60,263 bases of DNA from Candidatus Didemnitutus sp. (lineage in GTDB: Bacteria > Verrucomicrobiota > Verrucomicrobiia > Opitutales > Opitutaceae): NCBI GenBank assembly GCA_023701285.1, contig JAMPXH010000010.1, positions 1-60,263 on the forward strand, read 5' to 3'. Below the pieces are notes generated by a model that was not told the DNA's origin, made no database searches, and worked only from the letters and a program-made list of their open reading frames with translations. Made by a program: the position numbers and the translations under genes. This document shows, in pieces, positions 2,439-48,293 of the stretch. Each line of letters starts with the position of its first letter. The stretch's first letter is position 1.

Positions 2439-4610
2439 TCACCAACGCCACGCCGCCGTCACGCCGATCTGGCGCGGGTCGGCGCGGTTCTCGTAGCGGG
2501 TCTCGATGTAGTTCGGATCTTCGTTGCCGAAGAAATAGACGCGCTTGTCGTATTCCTCGTCGAGCAGGTTGCGCGCCCAGACCGTGATCGTCCAATCGCC
2601 CCACGCGTAGCCGAGCGTGGCGTTGATGACTTGGAACGGGCGGCGCGCCTCGTTCTGGTTGTTCGAGTCGAACTGCTGCCCACGCGCGACCAGTTCCGCG
2701 CTGCCGAAGAAGCCCTGCTCCGCGCGGTAGCGCGCGCCGAGCGTGTAGCCGTAGCGCGGCGTGTTGGCGAGGCGACGGCCGCCGACGGGGTTGCCGTTGG
2801 AGATCGTCGCGGCCTCCAGCTCGGAGTCCATCAGCGCGAGTGTGCCGTGCAGCGTCCACGCGCGCGTGAGCGCGAAGCTGCCCGAGGCCTCGAGGCCGGT
2901 GACGTGTGCGGCCGCGGCGTTGTCGGTGAAGAAACGGTAGCTGCCGCCGAAACCGGCGGAATCGCGCACCTGCGTGTCGCGGCGCTCGAGGTGGAAGACC
3001 GTGAACTCGCCCGTGAGACGTTGCTCGAGCCAGTGGCCGCGGAGGCCGAGCTCGTAGTTCCAGAGCGTCTCGGTGGCGTAGGTCAGCGGGTCGACGGCGG
3101 TGTCGATGCGCGCGTCGACGTTGATGCCGCCGGCCTTGTAGCCGCGCGTCACGGAGGCGAACGCGTGGTGCCGCTCCGTCAGCGCGTGCTCGAGCGTGAG
3201 CTTGCCGCCGACAAGCGTGTCGTCGAAGCTCGGCTGCGTGACCACCACGGGATCGAACGTGCCCGGTCCCTTGCGGTAACGCGTTTTCGTGCCGGTGCCG
3301 TGCAGGTCGATGTGCTCGGCGCGCAGGCCGAGGATCGCGCGCGTGCGCGGCGTGAAGTCGTGCGCGATCTGGCCGAAGAGCGCGGCGTTGTCGGAGACGT
3401 AGGCCGTGCGCAGGCCGCGGATGTTGCCGGGGTCCTCGTTGGTGTAGGCGCTCGTCTCGTCGATGCGGGCGAAGAACGCCCCGAGCGTCCAGCGGTCGAT
3501 CCAGCCGAGGGCGCGCACGCCGGGCTCGGAGTCGAGGCGCAGTTCCTGGTTCCACGCCGTGCGGTCGCGGTTGAGGTCGCTGAATCCCTCGTAGGAGGCC
3601 GCGGTCCAGTCGTCGTCGTAGCTGTAGGCGGAGTCGATCCACGCGGCGCTCGTCACCGTGCTGAGGCGGACACCGCTCCATCCGCGGTAGGTGCCGCGGA
3701 GGCTGGCGGCGGTGGAGCGCTGCTCGTCGCGGCCGGGCTGATCGCTGAAGGTGAACTCGCCGTTGTTATCGAGCGCGAACTCGTCGTAGCCGTTGGCGAA
3801 ATCGGAGAACAGCACCGCCGCCTCCCAGCGCCAGGCGTCGTTCGGGTTGAAGGTCAGGCGCAGGCGCGCGGTGAGTTCGTCGCGCGCGTTCGTGTCGCGA
3901 TCGAGCGTGAGGTTGCGGCGGAAGCCGTCGCTGCGGTGCTGCTGCACAGCAAGGCGCATCATCAACTTATCGGGTGTGGCGGAGAGGAGCGGGCCGCCGA
4001 GCGCGACGGCGCCGGAGCGCAGGTCGTCGCCGCCGGCCGAGACTTCGACCTGGCCGGTCCAGTAAGGCGTGGGCGCGTGGCTCACGAGACGCACGACGCC
4101 GCCGGCGGCGTTGGCCCCGAAGGCGCCGGCCTGCGGGCCGCGTAACACCTCGACTTGGCGCACGTCGAAAGTGCTGCCGAGCGTGCCGAGGCCGGTGAAG
4201 TCGAGGTCGTCGACGACGAAGCGCACGGTCGAATCGGGCGTCTCGCCTTCGAATTGCGAGTTCTCGCCGATGCCGCGGATCTGGAAATAACGCGGGCGCG
4301 ACGTGCCGCCGGTCCACGTGAGGTTCGGGATCTGGTCGACGAGATCGCCGAAGTGCCGCACGGAGGCGGCGCGCAGCGCGTTCTCGTCATAGACGGAGAC
4401 GCTGGCCGGGATGCGGTCGAGCGGGGTTTCCCAGAGATCGGCCGTCACGCGCAGCGGCGCGAGACGGACGAGGTCGGGCGACGAGTCGCCTGCGGCGGGA
4501 GGAGCGGCCGGCGGCGCGTCCACGGGGCGCGGGGCGCCGGTCTGGGCGCGCGCGGCGGCGAGGGCCGTCAGCGCGAGCGTGATGGAGAGGATTCGTGTCG
4601 GGAGTTGCAT
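2439..4610 (-). CDS. TonB-dependent outer-membrane receptor, predicted thiamine-compound transporter
   Basis: The 723-residue protein has a signal peptide (MQLPTRILSI... AARA), a plug domain with the motifs QVEVLRGPQAGAFGANAAGG and FQIRGIGE, then a long beta-barrel ending in the aromatic C-terminus AAWRW typical of outer-membrane proteins. It should use TonB energy to import a scarce ligand into the periplasm. A TPP riboswitch in its leader (4698-4790) points to thiamine or a precursor, as in the OMR1 receptors described for Bacteroidetes. It faces away from the GH2 gene, so a role in sugar uptake with that enzyme is less likely. The family call is firm; the ligand is inferred from the riboswitch. 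Confidence 0.92.
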   Translation of the reverse strand: MQLPTRILSITLALTALAAARAQTGAPRPVDAPPAAPPAAGDSSPDLVRLAPLRVTADLWETPLDRIPASVSVYDENALRAASVRHFGDLVDQIPNLTWTGGTSRPRYFQIRGIGENSQFEGETPDSTVRFVVDDLDFTGLGTLGSTFDVRQVEVLRGPQAGAFGANAAGGVVRLVSHAPTPYWTGQVEVSAGGDDLRSGAVALGGPLLSATPDKLMMRLAVQQHRSDGFRRNLTLDRDTNARDELTARLRLTFNPNDAWRWEAAVLFSDFANGYDEFALDNNGEFTFSDQPGRDEQRSTAASLRGTYRGWSGVRLSTVTSAAWIDSAYSYDDDWTAASYEGFSDLNRDRTAWNQELRLDSEPGVRALGWIDRWTLGAFFARIDETSAYTNEDPGNIRGLRTAYVSDNAALFGQIAHDFTPRTRAILGLRAEHIDLHGTGTKTRYRKGPGTFDPVVVTQPSFDDTLVGGKLTLEHALTERHHAFASVTRGYKAGGINVDARIDTAVDPLTYATETLWNYELGLRGHWLEQRLTGEFTVFHLERRDTQVRDSAGFGGSYRFFTDNAAAAHVTGLEASGSFALTRAWTLHGTLALMDSELEAATISNGNPVGGRRLANTPRYGYTLGARYRAEQGFFGSAELVARGQQFDSNNQNEARRPFQVINATLGYAWGDWTITVWARNLLDEEYDKRVYFFGNEDPNYIETRYENRADPRQIGVTAAWRW

Positions 4611-43542: not shown

Positions 43543-46500
43543 TCAGCGCGGCAGATTGCCGAGAGCATCGAGACTCTTGAGCACGGTCCGCCCCTTCACC
43601 GGCAGCGCCGCGGCCGGGGGCTTCGGCGAAGGCGCTGCCGCCGGCACCTCGCCCGCAATCTCGCGGCCCGCCGCCAGATCGCGCAAGGCCCGCTCGAGCC
43701 GCACCGCAGAGACCGGCCCGTCCGTGCCCAGCTCCTGCGCGAACAGGCTCACGCGCAACTCCTCCACCAGCCAGCGGAACTCGCCCGCGCGCTCGCCGAG
43801 CCGCGCTGCCGCCTGCACGAAAGGCTGCAGCTCGCGCGCCCGCGCCGAATCTTTCGCCGGGTCGCGTTTCCAGCGCTCGGCGCGCGCCTGCATGCCCTTG
43901 AGGTAGCGCGGCAGATGCTTCAACCGCGCGAACGGGATGCGCGCCACGAAATCGGGCGGCACCAGCGCCGCGAGATCGTTCTCCAATCCCGGATACGGAG
44001 TTTTGTGCGTCTGCAGCGCGAGCCGCAGCGTCAAGATCTCCCGCAGCAGATCGGTCAGGCGCGACACGAGGCCGCGGCCGTCGGCCTTCGCCTCCTCCAC
44101 CACCGCCGCGAAACGCGCCGCCGTGAGCGGCCGCACCTCGCGCCCGGTCAGCCAGCGCTCGATCGAGACCAGCGCCTGCTGCTGCAATTTTTCCAGCGGG
44201 GCCAGCCCCGCCGCCAGCACGCCGAGCGCGCGGAGGCCGCGCAGATCCTTCTCCAGCCAGCCGATGTCGTGGCGCAAATGCGACGCGAGCAGCCGCCGCA
44301 CGCCTTCGCGCGTCGCGGCCTGCGCCTGCTCGGGCGCAGCAAACAAGCGCACCGCGACGCCGGCCGGCACCGCCTGCAAGCCCGGGAACGCGCGCACCGG
44401 CACGCCCGCCTGCGCGCTGATGACGATGTCCTCCGGCAGATCGCCGAATTTCCACTCGAGCACGGGCTCGCGTTCCCATTGGGCGCGCGCCGCGCGCCAG
44501 GCGGCGTTGTCCGTGGTGGCGGCCTGCCGGCTCACTTCGCGCTCCTTCGAGCCGAGTTGCTGCTGGAGCTCGGCGAGATCGCGGCTGGCCCCGAGCACGG
44601 CGCCGCGCTGGTCGACGACTTCCACGCGCACGCGCAAATGCTCAGGTAGTGTCCGCTCGCTCCAGCCCTGCGGATCGATGCGCACGCCGAGCTTGTCCGT
44701 GAGCACCTCCGCGAGGGCGCGCACCAACGTGGGTCGGGGCGAACGCCCGGAGATGAGCCGGAGCTCGCCGAGGATACGGCGCGCCGTCTCGGCCAGCGGG
44801 ATCAGCGCGCGGCGCTGGTCCTTCGGCAACGCCTTGAGGAGGATTTCCACTTTCTCCTCCAGATGCCCCGGCACCGCCCAGTCGAGCGTGGCTTGGTCGA
44901 GCTCGGCCGCCTCGGCGAGGCTCACGCGCAACGTCACGCCGTCGTCGTCCGCGCCGGGCTTGTAGGCGTAGTTGAGCGGCAGCGCCCGGTTCTCCAGCGG
45001 CACGGCATCGGGAAACACGGCGGGATCGTGCGGCTCCTCGTCCGGTTTGAGGTCGTCCTCGCCGAGAAAAAGGAACTTCGGCTCCGTCATCTGGCGGTGC
45101 CGCACGAAGTCGACCAGTTCCGGCACGCTGCTGATGCTTTGGTAGGGCGAGTTCTCGGAACGAGCCTCAACCGGGCGCGCAGCGCTTGGCGGCTCGTGCG
45201 GAGAACTCGCCCTACCTTGGTCCGTCCTGCCTTCCGGCATCAACCGCCGCGCGTAGAAGCGATACACCGCCTCGTCGAGGTTCATGTAACCGGCCGCGCG
45301 CAGGCGCGTGAGGACGCTCTCGGCTTTTTCGCGCAGCTGGCGGTTGTGCCGGATGAAGTCGAAGGGCCACGTGACAGTGTCGCCGACCAAGCCTTCGCGG
45401 ATGAATATCTGCGTCGCGTGCACCGGGTCGATCTTGCCGTAGCCGACGGAGCGGGTCTCGAGCTCGAGATTGTAGAGCCGGCGGCGCTCCTTCACGAGGA
45501 CGCGGCCGCTCTCAACGCTCCAGAACGGCTCGCTGTGCGACACGCGCAGCAGGTGCGCGCCGAGATCGAGCGCCCACGAGGGATCGATGCGCGCGCAGGT
45601 GCGCGCGTAAACGCGGCCCGTCTCCATGATCTCCGACGCCATCAGCCAGCGCGCCACCTTCGGTTTGGCCGGAGCCTGCTTGCGGGGCGCAACCGGCTTC
45701 TCGCGCACGGCGCGCTCGAACAGCGCCGAGCCGGGGAAGACCGCGACCTTGCGGTCGTGCGCGGCGTGGTAGGTGCCGTCGTCGGTGCGCGTGGCGATGT
45801 TGCCGAGCAGGCCGGCGAGGATGGAACGGTGGATCGCCCGGTAACCCGGCGTGCCGAGGGCGAGATCGCGCACCGACTCGGGCGTGGCGGCGGCCTTGCG
45901 CCGCGCGGCCCGGCCGGCGTCGCGGGGGTCGGCCCCGGCGCCGTCGAACACCGAGGTGTCGTCGAAACCCTCGCCGCCCTCGATCGTGTCGATCAGTTGC
46001 GCGTGCACGTCGCGCCACTCGCGCATGCGCATGAAGGAGAGGAAGTGCGCCGTGCAGAACTTCCGCAGCTTGCCCAGCGTCATCGCCTCGAACTCGTCGT
46101 GATACGCCTCCCAGATCGAAAGCAGCGTGAGAAAATCCGAGTCGGGATGCGTGAAGCGCCGGTGCGCCGCATCGGCCTTCTGCTGGGCATCGAGCGGACG
46201 CTCGCGGGGGTCCTGGATGCTGAGCGCGGCGGCGATGACGAGCGCCTCGCGCATGCATTTTTCCGCCCGCGCCTGCAGCACCATGCGCCCGACGGTCGGG
46301 TCGACCGGCAGGTGCGCGAGATCGCGGCCGAGCTCGGTGAGCACGCCGGCCTCGTCGATCGCGCCGAGTTCGTGGAGCAGCGCATAGCCCGCGCGGATGC
46401 CCTTCGCCGGCGGGGCGTTGAGAAACGGGAATTCCTCGATGTCGCCGAGGCCGAAGGCCTTCATGCGCAGGATGACGTCGGCGAGATTAGCGCGCTGGAT

Positions 46501-47703
46501 CTCGGGCTGGGCGAAGCGCGGACGGTCGTTGTAGTCCTGCTCCGAGTAGAGGCGGATGCAGACGCCGTTGCTCACGCGGCCGCAACGGCCCTTGCGCTGA
46601 TCGGCGCTGCTCTGCGCGACCGGCTCCACCGGCAGGCGCCGCGTGCGGCTCTGCGGCACGTAGCGGCTGATGCGCGCGAGGCCGGTGTCGATCACGAAGC
46701 GGATGCCGGGGATGGTGAGCGAGGTCTCGGCGATGTTCGTCGCGACGACGACCTTGCGCTTCTGGGTCGGCGCGAACACGCGCTGCTGTTCGGCGTTGGT
46801 CAGACGGCCGAAGAGCGGCACGACCTCGACGTCGCGGCTGCGGCGGCCCTCGAGCAGGTCGCGCATCTCGCGGATGTCGCGCTCGGTGGGCAGGAAGACG
46901 AGCACGTCGCCGCCCGAGCTCTCGCGCAGCACGCGCTCGACCGCCTCCACGGCGCCGTCGATGTAGGTGAACTCGTCGTTGCGGTTGGACTGGTAAGGCG
47001 AGTTCTCCGAACGAGCCGCTTCGCGCCGCGTGGATCCATTCGGCTCGTTCGGAGAACTCGCCCTACCCTGCGGATCGGCCATTTCCTCCAACGGCGCGTA
47101 AATCACCTCCACCGGATACGTGCGGCCGGAGACCTCGACGATCGGCGCACCGTCGAAGGCGTCGGAAAAGGCCTGGGTGTCGATCGTGGCCGAGGTGATG
47201 ACGATCTTCAGGTCCGGCCGGCGATGGCGCAGCCGGCGGAGGTGACCGAGGATGAAGTCAATGTTGAGCGAGCGCTCGTGCGCCTCGTCGACGATGATGG
47301 CATCGTATTCGCGCAGCTCAGGGTCGCCTTGCAGCTCGGCGAGGAGCATGCCGTCGGTCATGAACTTGACGACGGTCTGCGGCGAGGTCTGGTCGGCGAA
47401 GCGGATCTTGCAGCCGACCTCGCGCCCGTGGTCGACGTTGAGTTCCTCGGCCACGCGGCGGGAGACCGAGGCGGCGGCCACGCGGCGTGGCTGGGTGCAG
47501 GCGATGCGCCCGCGGGTGCCGCCACCGGCGGCGAGCACCATCTTGGGGATCTGCGTGGTCTTGCCCGAACCGGTCTCGCCGGCGAGGACGATGACTTGGT
47601 GTTTCAGCAGCAGGCCGATGATCTCGTCCGCGCGCGCGCTGATCGGCAGTTCCGGCGGGAACTCGATGCGGAATTGAGGCGTTGGTTTGGGACGTGACGA
47701 CAT
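43543..47703 (-). CDS. hrpA: ATP-dependent RNA helicase HrpA (DEAH box), with two in-frame palindromic inserts
   Basis: The 1386-residue superfamily 2 helicase has motif I AGETGSGKTTQIP, motif II VDEAH, motif III SATI, and motif VI QRKGRCGRV; HA2, OB and the long HrpA C-terminal domain follow. It unwinds or remodels RNA, including mRNA on ribosomes. Two related 26-codon segments interrupt it: about residues 213-238 between the two RecA domains and 830-855 in the C-terminal half. Both read GRASSP...ARSENSPYQ, both are encoded by the palindromes at 46992 and 45141, and neither belongs to the family. They lie in likely surface linkers. Start 47703 is preferred over an upstream in-frame ATG. Confidence 0.94.
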   Translation of the reverse strand: MSSRPKPTPQFRIEFPPELPISARADEIIGLLLKHQVIVLAGETGSGKTTQIPKMVLAAGGGTRGRIACTQPRRVAAASVSRRVAEELNVDHGREVGCKIRFADQTSPQTVVKFMTDGMLLAELQGDPELREYDAIIVDEAHERSLNIDFILGHLRRLRHRRPDLKIVITSATIDTQAFSDAFDGAPIVEVSGRTYPVEVIYAPLEEMADPQGRASSPNEPNGSTRREAARSENSPYQSNRNDEFTYIDGAVEAVERVLRESSGGDVLVFLPTERDIREMRDLLEGRRSRDVEVVPLFGRLTNAEQQRVFAPTQKRKVVVATNIAETSLTIPGIRFVIDTGLARISRYVPQSRTRRLPVEPVAQSSADQRKGRCGRVSNGVCIRLYSEQDYNDRPRFAQPEIQRANLADVILRMKAFGLGDIEEFPFLNAPPAKGIRAGYALLHELGAIDEAGVLTELGRDLAHLPVDPTVGRMVLQARAEKCMREALVIAAALSIQDPRERPLDAQQKADAAHRRFTHPDSDFLTLLSIWEAYHDEFEAMTLGKLRKFCTAHFLSFMRMREWRDVHAQLIDTIEGGEGFDDTSVFDGAGADPRDAGRAARRKAAATPESVRDLALGTPGYRAIHRSILAGLLGNIATRTDDGTYHAAHDRKVAVFPGSALFERAVREKPVAPRKQAPAKPKVARWLMASEIMETGRVYARTCARIDPSWALDLGAHLLRVSHSEPFWSVESGRVLVKERRRLYNLELETRSVGYGKIDPVHATQIFIREGLVGDTVTWPFDFIRHNRQLREKAESVLTRLRAAGYMNLDEAVYRFYARRLMPEGRTDQGRASSPHEPPSAARPVEARSENSPYQSISSVPELVDFVRHRQMTEPKFLFLGEDDLKPDEEPHDPAVFPDAVPLENRALPLNYAYKPGADDDGVTLRVSLAEAAELDQATLDWAVPGHLEEKVEILLKALPKDQRRALIPLAETARRILGELRLISGRSPRPTLVRALAEVLTDKLGVRIDPQGWSERTLPEHLRVRVEVVDQRGAVLGASRDLAELQQQLGSKEREVSRQAATTDNAAWRAARAQWEREPVLEWKFGDLPEDIVISAQAGVPVRAFPGLQAVPAGVAVRLFAAPEQAQAATREGVRRLLASHLRHDIGWLEKDLRGLRALGVLAAGLAPLEKLQQQALVSIERWLTGREVRPLTAARFAAVVEEAKADGRGLVSRLTDLLREILTLRLALQTHKTPYPGLENDLAALVPPDFVARIPFARLKHLPRYLKGMQARAERWKRDPAKDSARARELQPFVQAAARLGERAGEFRWLVEELRVSLFAQELGTDGPVSAVRLERALRDLAAGREIAGEVPAAAPSPKPPAAALPVKGRTVLKSLDALGNLPR
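45141..45216. repeat. 76-bp palindromic element A inside hrpA
   Basis: 26-bp arms (45141-45166 and 45191-45216, 24 of 26 complementary) flank a 24-bp loop. Ends are ggtagg and cctacc. The dinucleotide tt lies at both borders, as a 2-bp target duplication. Insert plus duplication is 78 bp, so the frame is kept. Confidence 0.85.
46992..47067. repeat. 76-bp palindromic element B inside hrpA
   Basis: The same arms as element A (46992-47017 and 47042-47067, 25 of 26 complementary), again with a 24-bp loop of unrelated sequence. The dinucleotide ct flanks both sides. It is in the same orientation and reading frame as A. Confidence 0.85.
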
Positions 47704-47750
47704 CGCGCTTGGCGTGGCAGCGTAAGCAAGCCAATCAGGCTGATTCGGAA

Positions 47751-48293
47751 ATGACAAAATCCCCGCCGACCCTCCCGGAACGCAAGCTGCAACGTGTGTT
47801 GACCATCTCCCGCGCCGACAGCATCGGCGTGCTGGTGTGCTCCGGCAGCAGCCTGTTGCTCAGCTTGCTGGCCGGCGATGCGACCTTCGCCCTGTTCTCC
47901 GCGCTGGCCCTGGCGGCCGGCGGGATGGAGGCGCACGGGAACCGCCGCCTGCGCGAAGGTGGGCCGGACGGGTTGCAATGGCTGACGGGGGCGCAGGGCT
48001 GCCTTTACACCGTCGTGGTGGGGTATGCGCTGTGGCGGCTGAATTTCTTCGACGCCGCGGCGTATTGGGAACAGGTGCCCGCGCCCGCGCGCGAGCAATT
48101 CGAGGCCAAGATGCGCGAGGCGGGGCTCGATCCCGTCGCCGACCGCGCGCAACTCCTCGCGTTCGTGAACTTCCTTGTCTGCTCGGTCCTGCTGGTCGTG
48201 AGCACGCTCTATCAGGGCGGTCTCGCCTTCTGGTATTCGCGCCAGCGGGCGGCGGTGCTCGCCGCGCTGGGCTACGAAGCGCCCCGCGCCTGA
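47751..48293 (+). CDS. Membrane protein of unknown function
   Basis: 180 residues with about four transmembrane helices (SIGVLVCSGSSLLLSLLAG, ALFSALALAAGGMEA, a segment near CLYTVVVGYALWRLNFF, and FVNFLVCSVLLVVSTLY). No named family is recognised. The ATG 47751 lies 47 bp from the divergent hrpA start, so both promoters must share this short gap or overlap the genes. Confidence 0.78.
   Translation: MTKSPPTLPERKLQRVLTISRADSIGVLVCSGSSLLLSLLAGDATFALFSALALAAGGMEAHGNRRLREGGPDGLQWLTGAQGCLYTVVVGYALWRLNFFDAAAYWEQVPAPAREQFEAKMREAGLDPVADRAQLLAFVNFLVCSVLLVVSTLYQGGLAFWYSRQRAAVLAALGYEAPRA

Follow-up and report, generated by a model that had tools for sequence, protein, structure and literature searches.

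Repetitive extragenic palindromes (REPs) of the GTAG type were surveyed by Di Nocera et al. (2013, PMC3733652), and in the part of that survey drawn on here, Opitutus terrae is the species richest in intragenic copies. Of the intragenic inserts, more than half consist of dimers or groups and encode 20–30 residues; both uvrA genes of O. terrae carry two inserts, and RNA helicases are among the targets. In recB, two Xanthomonas species have distinct REPs at approximately one position, and extragenic location was no requirement for REPs in the survey. In-frame REP dimers in Opitutaceae are already known from that work. Here we describe two elements within hrpA, the gene of an ATP-dependent RNA helicase, in a 60,263-nucleotide stretch of Candidatus Didemnitutus sp. 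from the same family (contig JAMPXH010000010.1; the whole stretch is called the window). The best explanation, which as a whole we hold to be very probable, is that both are REP doublets forming hairpins (REPINs) of a GTAG-type family, here type A, that is linked to a REP-associated tyrosine transposase (RAYT), and that they would have been moved in trans and tolerated in the linkers of HrpA.

Under this explanation, type-A REP pairs would have spread in the genus Candidatus Didemnitutus through a RAYT transposase (Y1/HuH) acting in trans. In-frame copies in the disordered linkers of HrpA would have been tolerated and then inherited, gene-breaking copies would mostly have been purged by selection, and the insert peptides would be neutral.

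Two REPINs in hrpA

The gene occupies positions 43543..47757 of the minus strand, as an open reading frame (ORF) of 1404 codons counted from a TTG; the ATG at residue 19 is the likelier start. The closest solved-structure match of its product is HrpA (E = 3.4e-247), which we take to be the E. coli protein, and both insert sites are located between segments aligning to that structure. An inverted-repeat scan and the reading frame place REPIN 1 (site 1) at 46992..47067 and REPIN 2 (site 2) at 45141..45216, each 76 bp on the minus strand, encoding residues 231–256 (GRASSPNEPNGSTRREAARSENSPYQ) and 848–873 (GRASSPHEPPSAARPVEARSENSPYQ), respectively. In the hrpA frame, both read GRASSP.EP...ARSENSPYQ. 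The initial annotation had described two 76-bp palindromic elements lying in frame and leaving the helicase open, and the stop-free read-through on the minus strand bears this out; it was also right that one loop shows no relation to the other.

The arm consensus can be written G-GTAG-GGCgaGTTCtccGAACgaGCC, with a GTAG-type tag at the foot of a hairpin whose stem contains GA mismatches. The window arms, found by arm search and folding, deviate from it by single changes only. In REPIN 1, the arm at 47042..47067 (minus) matches the consensus perfectly, and the arm at 46992..47017 (plus) has GTAA replacing GTAG, the tag seen in the three other window arms. In REPIN 2, the arm at 45141..45166 (plus) has a single change within the hairpin loop, and that at 45191..45216 (minus) a single change that disrupts its own stem; the remaining three of the four arms fold into a tagged hairpin as single-stranded DNA. 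Each element is a pair of inverted REPs with a variable spacer in between, the arms being 92% and 96% complementary. Four copies of the arm occur in the window, against none in 100 dinucleotide shuffles, and the dimers are more stable than shuffled sequences (z = −7.2 and −8.5). Paired stem changes among related copies, noted by eye, include GTTC/GAAC, GTCC/GGAC, ATTC/GAAT, ATCC/GGAT, and GTCG/CGAC.

The predicted local distance difference test (pLDDT) score falls below 50 at residues 229–262 for REPIN 1 (25 aligned rows) and, for REPIN 2, at residues 64–89 of a modelled fragment in which the insert spans 68–93 (19 aligned rows). Insert-free HrpA homologues, which the initial annotation expected, were found, for example, at loci L073 and L074 (G- and L-numbers denote the family genomes and loci compared, G000 being the window's own genome). 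The hrpA inserts are most likely tolerated insertions in what the models predict to be disordered linkers.

RAYT genes and their bordering repeats

In the congener G096, a RAYT gene encoding 156 residues (L170, positions 1034–1504) is bordered on both sides by arms that match the window consensus in full (26/26) and are inverted relative to each other. Its product passes the NCBIfam model for this transposase, NF047646, with 91 bits at a cut-off of 80. Such REPs flanking a RAYT were found in G096 and not in G000 or G149. The Mur ligase gene adjoining this RAYT seems to hold a decayed REP dimer (L170:369–500), whose counterpart in G116 is fresh.

Twenty-five RAYT rows, two of them the same gene, were scanned for flanking inverted repeats: 14 had them, 5 had none, and 6 were unscored. 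RAYTs 58–64% identical to that of L170 are adjoined by GGTAGGGCGAGTCGTCCCGACGAGCC, and three at 48–49% identity are adjoined by GGTAGGGCGGGACCGCTGGGCCCGCC or close variants. A G000 RAYT (L256), 48% identical to that of L170, is flanked by GGTGGGGGCGGTTGTCCACAACCGCCC. Read by eye, REP and RAYT appear to diverge together. The best match to the window arm near L256, near a second G000 locus (L031), and near five G149 RAYT loci is 16/26 bases. The 330-residue RAYT-like gene of L031 (G000:C144:19390–22716) scores 56.5 bits against the 80-bit cut-off and lies inside inverted GGGGTCATGGCTTGACTCTTGACA, a different type of terminal repeat. This Y1 transposase was considered as the mover and rejected: its flanking inverted repeat is unrelated, and the arm was not found in the 3.3-kb locus at up to 7 substitutions.

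An alternative is that the elements are palindromes like those of Rickettsia (Rickettsia palindromic elements, RPEs) or Wolbachia (WPEs), with a mechanism of their own that is independent of RAYTs. The in-frame inserts in unrelated genes would fit, since RPEs likewise lie in frame in many protein genes, a likeness by description only (PMC3733652, in part). The GTAG tag, the REP stem, and the identical REPs around a RAYT gene speak against it, and the same source classes RPE-4 and RPE-6 among CGTC REPs, which suggests that the kinds are not wholly separate. We give this alternative a very slim chance. The comparison made in the initial annotation with elements of an unrelated phylum, as if there were no closer precedent, yields to the REPIN anatomy, the RAYT of a congener, and the intragenic GTAG REPs published for O. 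terrae, a member of the same family (PMC3733652).

Copies inside and outside genes

As the initial annotation had anticipated, the arm has further copies in its own genome: 35 matches at 30 places, against none for the reversed control pattern. At up to 2 mismatches, it occurs in 11 of 150 family genomes and in five of the seven of the genus Candidatus Didemnitutus, G000 counted among them. Ten of the 30 places in G000 are at contig ends and have a single flank only; one of these, in mfd, is counted as in-gene. The assembly was interrupted inside the palindromes, with element places at the ends of contigs C6, C10, C66, C69, C85, C120, C140, C178, C194, and C216. The loop at C6 is the reverse complement of that at C85, so these two are the abutting halves of a single element, and at the end of C194 (L023) a long poly-C tract, probably an assembly artefact, directly follows the arm.

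Codon-usage (coding-frame) scores on both flanks, ORFs, Pfam, and orthologue alignments assign 23 of 99 places in four genomes to genes, in frame: at least 6/30 in G000 (one single-flanked), 5/21 in G149, 6/36 in G096, and 6/12 in G116. Two of 38 places in G096 and one of 13 in G116 were left out, and the ambiguous cases L012, L235, L242, L249, and the first element of L241 were kept out of the in-gene count. The hosts are HrpA (with a third site in G116), Mfd (two sites), AlaRS, UvrA, TatD, an FMN-dependent dehydrogenase, a DUF255 protein, adenine deaminase, a resistance-nodulation-division (RND) pump (two sites), and Mur ligase; in the FMN dehydrogenase, TatD, and the RND pump, a single Pfam domain spans an insert. 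REPs are named for an extragenic location, and the window copies lie within hrpA; the lineage offers a natural assay of the tolerance of proteins to inserts of about 9 to 38 residues. The other 76 of the 99 places were not assigned to genes, and the in-gene copies have several lengths; the adaptation to survival in coding sequence that was first proposed is not supported by these data.

The initial annotation also gave each element a 2-bp duplication that completes the reading frame. Both window elements have one (TT and CT). As a rule, it was rejected: flanks are duplicated in only 7 of 42 dimers in the four genomes, where permutation predicts 3.0 (P = 0.02) and orthologous copies make up part of the 42. 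In-gene dimers also occur at 83, 62, 77, 71, and 65 bp, lengths at which two added bases alone would break the frame. The constant-length target-site duplication of classical miniature inverted-repeat transposable elements was, as far as 2-bp identity was examined, not found.

By its HrpA relatives, the window belongs in or next to Candidatus Didemnitutus, and the nearest of them (L062, 97% identical) comes from genome G149 (= G150). In nine elements common to G000 and G149 and with a known G000 locus, 331/338 arm positions, 74/94 loop positions, and 2970/3445 flank positions are identical, gap columns excluded and with arm identity biased upwards by arm-based discovery. It could be argued from these figures that in-gene REPINs are kept for a function: their hairpins, in RNA or DNA, could set the pace of translation or bind gyrase, or their peptides could be useful linkers. 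Several hosts, moreover, are nucleic-acid enzymes (HrpA, Mfd, UvrA, AlaRS, TatD), as has been noted for other species (PMC3733652, in the part drawn on). However, arm identity outside genes (179/182) is as high as inside (152/156) and may therefore have nothing to do with the protein; the way in which copies were discovered also inflates it. The same linkers in congeners carry unrelated REPs, heptamer-like repeats, or nothing. A function for the in-gene REPINs is, on balance, quite improbable, and one at the peptide level has no support apart from the arm conservation, which extragenic copies have too.

By joined flanks, 11 G149 copies were tested; 10 were located in G000 and one (L202) was not found. 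Nine of the 10 places are occupied or at a contig break in G000, and one (L200) is element-free there. None of the 10 located copies yielded a clean empty site by this approach, the flanks of L200 being too diverged for the junction, and the element-free place in G000 has an intact REP some 90 bp away. One AlaRS copy is present in G000 and absent in G149. The description of the palindrome as mobile, made in the initial annotation, is not upheld by this comparison. Locus L200 also holds, at 1900–1960, a further dispersed inverted-repeat family, GGTAGCGGCCGTCGTCCC...GGGACGACCGCCGCTACC, with about 30 matches in G000. At L204, two REPINs (2000–2075 and 3333–3408) lie 1.3 kb apart and have nearly the same loop; either a local duplication took place or a copy retained its loop.

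Some observations weigh against a RAYT-moved family tolerated in linkers. Single REP hairpins are not more stable than shuffles (z = −0.98 to +0.25), and the sparse aligned rows at the inserts may partly explain their low pLDDT. A type-A RAYT was not found in G000 (95% complete) or G149 (86%), and since it was not found in G000, the type-A family looks orphaned there. Finally, recent mobility is unsupported, as most of the located G149 copies are common to G000.

Shared linkers and known systems

From species to species, different REP families occupy the same linkers of HrpA, Mfd, and AlaRS, and this goes beyond published reports; same-site REP turnover in Opitutaceae was not found in the open-access papers searched. 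In hrpA, 8 of 48 rows carry a recognisable REP at site 1, and 7 of 46 rows do so at site 2. At least four REP types are represented; DNA was inspected for 17 rows, and the others were judged by peptide. Site 2 of L066 and site 1 of L069 are uncertain and not counted, and site 2 of L082, cut by a contig end, is counted. Site 2 of L063 and L064 contains two REP types in tandem.

For mfd site 2, sequence was available from 12 genomes, and six of these carry REPs, of type A in G149, type B in G116 and G161, and other types in G074, G096, and G162; G040, G160, G163, G133, and G159 have none, and the state of G164 is ambiguous. In G096, the two arms of the dimer (L312) resemble different REP families. 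Site 1 of mfd has an element in G149, G116, G096, and G000.

The AlaRS linker was obtained from 10 of 13 genus genomes. It holds a type-A REP in G000 and type-B REPs in G096 and G162; other palindromes occur in G116 (GGAG-type), G040 and G133 (GGGAGCGAGCTTGCTCGCGA type), and G074 (another palindrome). A heptamer-like repeat stands there in G149, perhaps something similar in G164, and nothing clear in G159. By eye, this linker seems in several Opitutaceae to contain short heptamer-like tandem repeats in place of a REP, CTCAGCG-type in G149 (L353), and also in L284, L290, L293, L298, L301, and L306. Between the near relatives G000 and G149, the AlaRS linker shows apparent turnover.

Could this recurrence stem from one ancestral insertion per site, with the arms later rewritten, instead of repeated insertion? 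There is a hint of this in mfd: 83-bp elements with different arm types lie at the same base of site 2 in G149 (type A) and in G116 and G161 (type B), and elements of this length, seen only in mfd among the dimers measured, also occupy site 1 in G149 and G116. On the other hand, the elements at hrpA sites 1 and 2, in AlaRS, and in the mfd of G074, G096, and G162 differ in length, start, and family. AlaRS has a type-A REP in G000, whereas G149, the nearest relative, has a heptamer-like repeat there; for AlaRS, one insertion behind all recurrences is therefore unlikely, while for mfd it may hold. We consider a single ancestral insertion per site rather unlikely overall.

It is tempting to propose, tentatively, that a limited number of disordered linkers in housekeeping enzymes of Opitutaceae (HrpA, Mfd, AlaRS, and others) might be recurrent landing pads, which each lineage would fill in frame with REPs of its present or past RAYT families, older copies being rewritten in step with the resident family. 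Gene conversion as an idea for REPs is reportedly older, to judge from the title of a 1988 work by Higgins.

Nineteen in-gene arms were compared with the RAYT loci available for their own genomes; for eight of them, a REP at those loci is identical or shows a single difference. In mfd, these are G161 site 2 right, G116 site 1 right, and G162 site 2 left (26/26 each), and G074 and G096 site 2 right (25/26 each); in other hosts, the G096 FMN dehydrogenase (26/26), G096 hrpA site 1 (26/27), and G040 AlaRS (24/24). The left arm of G116 mfd site 2 is not counted among them, its matching copy lying in the neighbouring Mur ligase gene. Near-exact matches at own RAYT loci were not found for the remaining arms: G096 AlaRS reaches 22/26, G096 mfd left 19/26, G074 AlaRS 16/24, and type A in G000 and G149 16/26. 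For a type-D repeat at hrpA, a RAYT was not found in its own genome (16/22 bases), and 20/22 bases match at a G040 RAYT locus. In a control with the RAYT loci of other genomes, the match was better in 8/19 and equal in 7/19, and the own genome was specifically favoured in only 4/19, which weakens the link to the own RAYT.

If the landing-pad proposal were true, the same peptide would be changing simultaneously in many unrelated proteins under the action of a selfish DNA repeat. Several REP families in the same linkers amount to replicate insertions, with which comparative genomics can test whether targets are chosen or merely tolerated and whether arms are rewritten or elements re-inserted.

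Among described systems, the REPIN and RAYT system of Pseudomonas fluorescens SBW25 likewise has paired inverted REPs with a variable spacer between them and REPs adjoining a RAYT gene (Bertels and Rainey 2011, PMC3116915). In the part of that study used here, the copies are almost all extragenic, with 14 of 1,067 occurrences of the main 16-mers overlapping genes, whereas nearly a quarter of the places are in genes here. GTAG recurs in the E. coli TnpA-REP system, as does a stem that bulges at a conserved mismatch (PMC8266576, in part). CT is the usual cut site there; here, as read from DNA alone, 13 of 84 element ends have a CT no more than 4 nt away, a count for which no expectation was computed. 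The GTAG REP dimers of O. terrae belong to the same bacterial family and share the tag, the 20–30-residue dimers, the doubly targeted genes, and RNA helicase and repair-gene hosts; they come from another genus, and the likeness is one of description (PMC3733652).

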